Source of the DNA: Pseudanabaena biceps
Lineage (GTDB): Bacteria; Cyanobacteriota; Cyanobacteriia; Pseudanabaenales; Pseudanabaenaceae
Assembly: GCA_013361095.1 (NCBI GenBank)
Contig: JAATWA010000001.1
Coordinates: 620,001-684,000, forward strand
Reading direction: 5' to 3'
Length of the DNA: 64,000 nucleotides
Under the pieces are notes generated by a model, which searched no databases, was not told where the DNA came from, and saw nothing but the letters and a program-made list of their open reading frames with translations. This document shows, in pieces, positions 19,479 to 22,656 of the stretch; position 1 is the stretch's first letter, and each line of letters begins with the position of its first letter. The translations under genes and the position numbers were made by a program.

Positions 19479-19654
19479 CAGCAATTCTCATTATAAAAAT
19501 TGTTTTTTTTGAAAGCCAGCCGTAGGCTGGCTTTCAAAAAAAAACAATTTTGGGGTTCGCTGGGCCTAAGGCGCAGCAAACCCCAAAATTGTTTTTTGCT
19601 GGCACAACTTGTTTGGGGGCGCATTGCGCCCCCAAACAAGTTATTGAGAAAGCT
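19479..19654. repeat. Family B element (B2) with an extra hairpin near the right end
   Basis: Left end CAGCAATTCTCATTAT at 19479, GAAAGCCAGCC hairpin, then the GGGGTT/AACCCC-type stem. The usual right end is disturbed. A separate hairpin at 19606-19642 (AACTTGTTTGGGGGCGC arms) lies where the right end should begin, followed by TTATTGAGAAAGCT, which may be the decayed terminus. Confidence 0.65.
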
Positions 19655-19970: not shown

Positions 19971-20099
19971 CAGCAATTCTGATTATAAAAATTGGTTTTA
20001 TGAAAGCCATCCGTAGGATGGCTTTCATAAAACCAATTTAGGATTTTCAGCGCCGAAGGCGCTGAAAATCCTAAATTGGTTTTGTAATGAGAATTGCTG
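19971..20099. repeat. Family B element (B3) with 9-bp target duplication
   Basis: A 129-bp element, CAGCAATTCTGATTAT to GTAATGAGAATTGCTG. It is flanked by TTACTTACG at 19962-19970 and again at 20100-20108. The first hairpin has the apex GAAAGCCATCCGTAGGATGGCTTTC (written here as arms GAAAGCCATCC and GGATGGCTTTC). The second has CAGCGCCGAAGGCGCTG. Confidence 0.92.
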
Positions 20100-20109
20100 T
20101 TACTTACGA

Positions 20110-20154
20110 GTAAATCGCACTAAAAAACTAATTTTGTTTTTTAGTGCGATTTAC
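20110..20154. repeat. Hairpin, AT-rich
   Basis: Perfect 19-bp arms GTAAATCGCACTAAAAAAC around a 7-nt loop. It begins 2 nt after the target duplication of B3. No gene lies in 19935-20529 except repeats. Confidence 0.7.
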
Positions 20155-20223
20155 TGCTTAATTACCTATACATTGTATTGCTTGATAGAGTCAGCTAGGT
20201 AACTTTAGCGTTAGTATTATGCT

Positions 20224-20529: not shown

Positions 20530-22656
20530 ATGCTTTTAATCACAGTTGGTACAGAACAATATCAATTCAATGCGCTTATGCATTGGATTGAGTTATTAGT
20601 TAAGTATCGATTGCTCAATGAAGAAATTTTAGTACAGTATGGGGCTTCGACCTATATTCCAGATGGGGCTAGAGCCTATCGCAAGCTAAGCGAACAGGAG
20701 CTTTTGAGCTTTGTGGATGCTGCTAGTTTGATCATTAGTCACTGCGATGAAGCAGTCGCACAACTACTCGAAGATAAAGATACGCCCTATGTTTTAGTGC
20801 CGAGGTTACAAAGATTTCGCGAACATGTAGACAATCATCAAATGGAAGTCGCCGACGACTTTGAACGTCGAGGTATCGCGATCGCCAGATCGCCTGGGGA
20901 TTTAGTTAAATTTCTGAAACTTCGGCAAACGTCAGCCGTTATTCCTAAGATTGATGAGAATCAACTATGTGAATATTTAAAAGAGAGATTTCAGCCCCAG
21001 AAACTAATGTTGGTCTGCGCTTCGGGTGGTTACTTTCGTTATATGCAAAGCCTCACATCCTTTTGGAAAGAATATAGCGATCGCCTATGGATATCTGTAC
21101 GTAATAAGGCAACGAAACAAGAGATAGAAGATCGTCATTACTGGGGATATGCGCCTGTCAAAGATAACTTGATCAATATTATTAGAAATGGGTTATTAGC
21201 GATTAAAGTTGTCCCCAGCTATAAGCCAGACCTAGTTGTCTCCACTGGTTCTGGCTTCAGTTTGCCATATTTGCTCATGGCTAAATGGTTTTGCGGAAGT
21301 AAAATTGTTTATATAGAATCCAAAACTCGTTTTCACGATATTAGTTTGCCAGCAAGAATTTTAACGCAACTCAAGGCGATAGATTTGCTGGTTGTCAGAA
21401 GTAAATCTATTTGCGATCTCTATCCGCAGACCGTCTATATTCCTGTCAGTGATGGCACTAACAAGGATCTCAGTTGTAATCGAGACTACAAACAAGTTTC
21501 CGTGGTTACTTTCGATGAGGTCGCTTTTATCTTCTGTCCTGAGCGATTAGAGTTTTCCACAGCACGCCAATTCTTGGATGATTTCCAAAATATTTGTAAT
21601 GCAGATGACTTTTATCCCAAAGTTATTATCGACATGAGTCATACCACAGTCATTGATAGTGCTGGATTGGGAGCATTAACGAATTGTCTGAGGCTAGCCG
21701 CGCAGAATAAGACAGAAATTATTCTGTGGAGTGTCAGCGAGGCTGTTGGCGCTGTGATTGGTCTTTCTTCTCTAAACAATTTATTTATAATTGAGCAAGG
21801 TAGTAATACTTTCCGTTTTGCTGAATTCATCCAACAATCGCGAGTTAGTAACATTACACCCTTTGGTTTATTTCTATTTAGACTGCAACTGGTACTCCGT
21901 AAGATTCCAGTGTTAAGAATATTTTATCCACTTCTTAAATTTCTATTTCCTTGGATTGATGTTGATCCCAGTGTTCCTGTACATCCTTCCGTCAAGAATA
22001 TAACTAAAAGATTGATTGATATAGTAGGCGCGATCATCGGTTTAAGCTTTACTACAATCCTGTTTATCCCGATCGCGATCGCAATTAGTTTAGAGAGTGA
22101 TGGCAGTATCTTATTTGCCCAAACTCGCTGTGGACTGTTGAGCAAACCCTTCCGTATTTGGAAATTTCGCTCAATGGTCAAAAATGCTGAACAGTTAAAA
22201 GCAAAAGTAGAAAATCAAATTGACGCAAATTCAGCGGATATGGATTCTGAATCAAAAGCAAATGGTAAATTCTTTAAAAATGCTGATGATCCTCGAGTCA
22301 CGAGGGTAGGTAGATTTTTGAGAAGGACAAGTCTTGATGAATTTCCGCAGTTTTGGAATGTCTTAATTGGCGATATGAGCTTAGTGGGAACGCGCCCTCC
22401 AACATATAACGAGATTAACTCCTATGAATTAGCAGTGGAATATCATGATGAGCGATATACAGAATGGAATCGTCTAGATGTCAGACCAGGAATTACAGGA
22501 GTATGGCAAGTCAACGGACGCTCGAATGTCCGAACTTTTGCGGAAGTAGTTAACTACGATATTGAATACCGTAAAAACTGGAGTATTTGGTACGATTTGA
22601 AATTGATAGTACAAACTGTTTTAGCTCTATTTGACAAGAAAAATAAGGCTGTCTAA
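20530..22656 (+). CDS. Fusion: Alg13-like + Alg14-like + STAS + sugar-1-phosphate transferase
   Basis: A 708-aa protein with four parts. Residues 1-140 ([17 protein letters not shown]... with [13 protein letters not shown]) resemble Alg13/PssE, the donor half of a GT28 transferase. Residues 155-315 ([17 protein letters not shown]... [15 protein letters not shown]) resemble Alg14/PssD, the membrane-anchoring half. Residues 325-430 hold a STAS fold ([26 protein letters not shown], with the phosphorylatable Ser in DSAGLG). Residues 488-705 are a polyprenyl-phosphate sugar-phosphate transferase ([13 protein letters not shown] membrane segment, [43 protein letters not shown]). It could make the lipid-linked first sugar and add the second, with STAS as a control or partner domain. 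The role in exopolysaccharide is inferred. Confidence 0.88.

Follow-up and report, generated by a model that had tools for sequence, protein, structure and literature searches.

The window, i.e., the whole 64,000-nucleotide stretch of Pseudanabaena biceps DNA analysed here, carries on its forward strand an ATG-initiated open reading frame (20530..22656) for a 708-aa protein with four domains in the order Alg13-Alg14-STAS-PGT. Its Alg13/PssE-like donor half (residues 1-140; 20530..20949) contains, by alignment, an altered donor loop, H71-C-D-E-A-V76 (20740..20757). There follows an Alg14/PssD-like acceptor half (residues 150-316; 20977..21477) in which alignments place G166-G167-Y168 (21025..21033) at the GGH catalytic loop, with Tyr replacing the His. 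The STAS domain (residues 322-430; 21493..21819) contains the D376-S377-A-G-L-G motif picked out in an earlier, sequence-only reading of this DNA; Ser377 (21658..21660) is the equivalent of SpoIIAA Ser58 in phmmer alignments to SpoIIAA and TM1442. A helical linker (residues 431-484; 21820..21981), with modelled helices at 432-440, 444-458, 462-472, and 474-477, leads from there into a monotopic PGT (Bac_transf) domain (residues 485-708; 21982..22653).

All four parts were recognized by Pfam above the respective curated cut-offs, namely Glyco_tran_28_C (PF04101) at residues 1-128 (E 6e-6), Alg14 (PF08660) at residues 214-304 (E 5e-8), STAS (PF01740) at residues 324-420 (E 7.5e-10; 39 bits versus a cut-off of 22.6), and Bac_transf (PF02397) at residues 493-701 (E 5e-64). 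Among NCBIfam profiles, PssE matched residues 3-155 (E 5e-17) with 62.2 bits, below its equivalog cut-off of 120, and PssD matched residues 160-303 (E 7e-22) with 78.4 bits, below its equivalog cut-off of 110. The WelK profile also matched these glycosyltransferase (GT) halves, and profiles for anti-sigma antagonists and EPS sugar transferases matched the STAS and PGT stretches at scores below their own cut-offs. The 708-aa protein was modelled by AlphaFold from an input of 64 sequences, with a mean pLDDT of 84.8 and a pTM of 0.75. Foldseek searches with this model matched the PGT domain to PglC (TM 0.79 by target) and WbaP, the STAS domain to TM1442 (rmsd 1.6), SpoIIAA, and RsbV, and the GT half to the MurG fold, the latter in a sequential alignment that does not handle permuted order. 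Pfam, AlphaFold, and Foldseek thus agree on an Alg13, an Alg14, a STAS, and a PGT part, such that the four-part fusion proposed from sequence is real, with the domain order that had been given for it and with a genuine STAS fold.

Within the PGT domain, the model has a hydrophobic, membrane-associated helix at residues 491-522, and the motif SLD603E604FPQ, conserved in aligned relatives, retains the Asp-Glu catalytic dyad intact. The PGT of the window protein is predicted to be active, transferring a sugar-1-phosphate onto polyprenyl phosphate.

The intergenic region upstream of the gene contains six near-perfect inverted repeats with arms of 18-29 nt and spacers of 1-3 nt (19495-19642, 19989-20083, and 20109-20155). 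Some of these share words such as GAAAGCCA, suggestive of dispersed palindromic elements.

Two paralogous fusions and their split relatives

Nearly all Pseudanabaena genomes examined carry four-domain proteins, and these occur as two paralogues, clades A and B, which a PGT-domain tree resolves as sisters. Each clade is represented by 22 distinct sequences, one of those in clade B being truncated where its contig ends, and three other genomes (L032-L034) contain more distant four-domain fusions. The window protein belongs to clade A; over residues 1-480, it is 65-74% identical to other members of that clade and 41-45% identical to those of clade B. A chance or frameshift fusion is ruled out by the conservation of the open reading frame in dozens of genomes, and the architecture is likewise no assembly error, since it recurs in clade A, clade B, and the three additional genomes. 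A search of the window genome returned neither a clade-B copy nor any further Alg13/Alg14 match. In a genome that retains clade B, fragments of a clade-A gene (G019:C103:101427-101700; residues 1-29 at 90% and residues 27-91 at 55% with a stop) represent a decaying copy.

The two paralogues differ in their surroundings. In the loci read, clade-A genes are flanked by an open reading frame of ~564 aa for a T2SSE-type ATPase and by one of 348 aa, the latter, in the window, an anthranilate phosphoribosyltransferase as judged by eye. Clade-B genes adjoin Poly_export and GNVR genes, i.e., they lie in an exopolysaccharide export operon. In other cyanobacteria, the module is split among genes, for which the arrangement Alg14, Alg13, STAS-PGT is frequent; STAS-PGT proteins of two domains are common there. 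The Alg13-Alg14 order of the fusion is the reverse of that in the split operons. A three-domain form, Alg13-STAS-PGT (473 aa), also exists (L119:1495-2916), with an RsbW-type kinase gene 51 bp away on the opposite strand.

The STAS serine and linked kinases

The STAS domain had been proposed from sequence to act as a phospho-switch, and conservation of its Ser bears on this directly. The residue equivalent to SpoIIAA Ser58 is a Ser in 46/46 split proteins, 22/22 clade-B proteins, and 14/22 clade-A proteins including that of the window. By the yardstick of the sequence-only reading itself, this tells in part against the switch, since 8 of the 22 clade-A sequences depart from Ser (Gly in seven, Thr in one); the residue is invariant in clade B. 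The clade-A proteins with Gly cluster together in the PGT-domain tree (support 93), and the distant fusion L034 also has Gly; in all of these proteins, the domain is otherwise conserved. For clade A as a whole, the STAS domain is constrained (dN/dS 0.074). All three Ser changes fall on lineages with degenerate GT motifs; strict coupling between the two losses is not counted as evidence, because only three events are involved and two other loci with degenerate Alg13 neighbours (L058 and L141) keep the Ser.

A second line of evidence comes from gene linkage. Among non-identical loci with sufficient flank, 18/44 STAS-PGT genes have an RsbW-type kinase gene no more than 1 kb away, in 17 cases on the same strand, as against 0/40 genes for STAS-less PGTs (Fisher p 1.2e-6, a nominal value given that related genomes are not independent), leaving 26/44 STAS-PGT genes with no adjacent kinase. 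The anti-sigma-type kinase that the sequence-only reading suggested seeking nearby was encountered beside split homologues but not at the fused genes, with none near the window gene or near the other fused copies checked, 21 per clade in all. Linked kinases form one group in a tree (SH-aLRT 96; 18 linked and 2 unlinked members) and retain the ATP-binding N-box EGFTN and a W/Y-D-x-G motif. A gene for a free STAS protein often follows the kinase gene, as in Nostoc (L049), where an Alg14-Alg13-(STAS-PGT)-kinase-STAS operon lies downstream of GT2 and Wzx-type genes and encodes a kinase of 158 aa (HATPase_c_2, E 1.6e-12).

RsbW-type kinases do occur in the window genome at unlinked positions, as do free STAS proteins and SpoIIE phosphatases. 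Two kinases considered as Pseudanabaena orthologues of the linked kinase (C17:755828 and C17:2375953) do not belong to the linked group in the tree. A cluster at G000:C17:2374416-2376309 (L187) comprises a STAS protein, a SpoIIE phosphatase with a receiver domain, and an RsbW-type kinase, and resembles Nostoc HmpUVW. Directly upstream of the STAS-PGT and kinase genes in two loci (L059:3064-3711 and L129:2723-3388) is a DUF3318 gene, possibly a further part of the module.

Taken together, the kinase linkage (often with a free STAS gene) and the invariant Ser of the split and clade-B proteins give good support to a phospho-switch as what the STAS-PGT module did ancestrally. For the window protein, which retains Ser377 but has no linked kinase, and for other copies with this Ser, phospho-control of the STAS domain is no more than possible, and it is not universal in clade A. 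The alternative with the greatest weight, which we nonetheless regard as unlikely, is that the STAS part is a structural or docking domain, serving in dimerization or in GT-PGT coupling with no phosphorylation involved, for which MlaB, a STAS subunit, offers a comparison. Such a role would suit a domain that stays constrained in clade A while Gly stands for Ser in seven clade-A proteins and in L034, with no kinase near any fused copy checked; it is at odds with the invariance of the Ser in all split and clade-B proteins, and with a kinase linkage that is specific to STAS-bearing PGTs.

Glycosyltransferase halves of clade A

At the GGH position of the Alg14 half, clade A has GGY in 20, GNY in one, and GGA in one of its 22 sequences; GGH is kept in 22/22 clade-B sequences, and in split genes where the motif is readable. 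The Alg13 loop reads HCDExx in all 22 clade-A proteins (with D-E-A-V in the window protein), and an intact HCGEG[TS] is present in every one of the 22 clade-B proteins, as it is in nearly all readable split genes. Asp73-Glu74 is fixed across clade A, and the HQ.E motif is mostly retained there. In the distant homologue Agl24, the GGH His is essential, with the H14A variant inactive (PMC8993221). By pairwise Nei-Gojobori estimates (19 pairs per clade), dN/dS for the Alg13 half is 0.069 in clade A and 0.056 in clade B, and for the Alg14 half 0.119 and 0.056, respectively, i.e., the latter half evolves about twice as fast in clade A. With values this low, both GT halves are constrained in clade A.

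The simplest reading of these data is that the clade-A GT module has been retained but is probably non-catalytic, since both the GGH His and the GEG[TS] donor loop have been lost. The substituted loops could instead denote a changed donor or acceptor, which is conceivable because Asp73-Glu74 is fixed in the clade. That clade A constitutes a new GT with altered donor and/or acceptor chemistry, as opposed to a dead one, would also fit the purifying selection on both halves and the largely retained HQ.E motif. We nevertheless consider it distinctly unlikely, as the His that was lost is the one essential in Agl24, the GGY that replaced it is not strictly kept (GNY, GGA), as expected for a position that is no longer catalytic, and the Alg14 half has accelerated relative to clade B.

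Less probable still is a fully active bifunctional enzyme that would make the first sugar-PP-lipid and then add a second sugar, with the STAS domain as an on/off phospho-switch. All four domains are present, the window copy has Ser377, the WelK, PssD, and PssE profiles match (lipid-linked sugars primed by a PGT are the substrates of the PssD/PssE families), and clade B has every motif along with a place in an export operon. For the window protein, however, the earlier suggestion that one polypeptide could perform the first two steps of synthesis is unsupported, since GGH has become GGY and GEG[TS] has become DEAV, with both motifs gone in 22/22 clade-A proteins; the PssD and PssE equivalog cut-offs are missed as well, and the Ser is not conserved across the clade. 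Two-step synthesis within one polypeptide is plausible for clade B.

Three loci outside the fused clades (L058, L126, and L141) have an Alg13-like gene beside STAS-PGT and no Alg14 gene in the flank examined; two of them, L058 and L141, encode an Alg13-like protein with an altered donor loop. Loss of GT function may thus extend beyond Pseudanabaena.

A proposed mechanism and its relation to known systems

As an explanation for the whole, we favour, at slightly better than even, a STAS-controlled variant of a priming PGT in which the GT halves are non-catalytic yet under selection. The gene product would be a STAS-regulated, membrane-associated PGT that primes polysaccharide synthesis by transferring a sugar-1-phosphate to a polyprenyl-phosphate carrier. 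It would descend from the module widespread in cyanobacteria, in which a STAS-PGT protein of two domains accompanies the Alg14/PssD and Alg13/PssE proteins that jointly add the second sugar. In that module, the linked kinase would bind the STAS domain and phosphorylate the Ser of its DSSG motif, with a free RsbV-like STAS protein competing for the kinase; the phosphorylation state would then turn the priming PGT up or down, with the STAS domain setting either the activity or the oligomeric state of the enzyme. Fusion of the parts as Alg13-Alg14-STAS-PGT and duplication of the gene would have taken place in a Pseudanabaena ancestor. One copy, clade B, would have kept all motifs and a place in the exopolysaccharide export operon; the other, clade A, would have lost the GGH His and GEG[TS], with its GT module passing to an acceptor-binding, docking, or regulatory role. 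More tentatively, and at somewhat less than even, we propose that this constitutes partner switching with an enzyme as its output, i.e., that a dedicated kinase gates the first exopolysaccharide step via STAS, in an arrangement rewired to a pseudo-GT fusion in clade A.

Partner-switching systems classically control sigma factors and several loci do have a free STAS gene, but that the linked kinase should act only on free STAS proteins to control transcription, with STAS on the PGT incidental, is quite improbable, as several loci have a kinase beside STAS-PGT with no free STAS detected nearby (L059, L122, L129-L131, L133, and L135-L137) and no kinase is found at STAS-less PGTs.

With a STAS domain held covalently in a polysaccharide-starting enzyme, and with relatives encoded beside their own kinase, the gene itself names the target of regulation, and the switch would probably control the start of slime-polysaccharide synthesis. 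Whether a priming transferase is under direct phospho-control thereby becomes testable in genetically tractable Nostoc or Anabaena. The clade-A/clade-B pair provides a natural contrast between an apparently dead and an intact GT module on one type of regulated transferase.

A STAS domain inside a glycan enzyme is not as fresh as had been supposed from sequence, since Anabaena all4160 had already been described as having an N-terminal STAS domain fused to a glycosyltransferase (PMC8256260, with reference to work by Wang et al. 2007 on genes for heterocyst envelope polysaccharide); from that description, we infer that all4160 is a two-domain STAS-PGT protein. A literature search, mostly without subscription journals, found no paper on STAS with a phosphoglycosyl or sugar transferase, on the kinase linkage, or on the four-domain form, and the linkage of STAS-PGT genes to a kinase is new here. 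Relative to cyanobacterial STAS-PGT proteins, with which its STAS and PGT domains are homologous, the window protein has the additional Alg13 and Alg14 halves and lacks an adjacent kinase.

PssD/PssE (Cps14F/Cps14G) and the one-chain WelK act next after the priming PGT. Both of their GT28-type halves are recognizable in the window protein, in the reverse order to that of WelK; it differs from these enzymes in the loss of the catalytic GGH and GEG[TS], in the attached STAS-PGT, and in falling short of the equivalog cut-offs. The same reversed order occurs in natural Alg13-Alg14 fusions of Entamoeba and Dictyostelium, which are eukaryotic and for which no STAS or PGT part is described in that account (PMC8993221).

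As for the STAS domain, it shares with SpoIIAA, RsbV, and SypA the fold and the Ser of DS(A/S/T)G, and its split orthologues are encoded beside an RsbW-type kinase; unlike them, it lies inside an enzyme, has no kinase beside the fused gene, and has lost the Ser in part of its clade. In Vibrio fischeri, polysaccharide-dependent biofilm formation is under the control of the STAS protein SypA at a level below transcription; like HmpV of Nostoc, SypA functions outside the classical sigma-factor scheme, the target being unknown in both cases (PMC10120452). A further precedent for our proposal comes from Myxococcus xanthus, where the PGT EpsZ is activated, it appears through direct contact, by the single-domain phosphoprotein EpsW~P (PMC12802240). 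There too, a phosphorylatable single-domain regulator operates on a priming PGT; EpsW, however, is a response-regulator receiver protein acting in trans, whereas the STAS domain described here is fused to the transferase itself.
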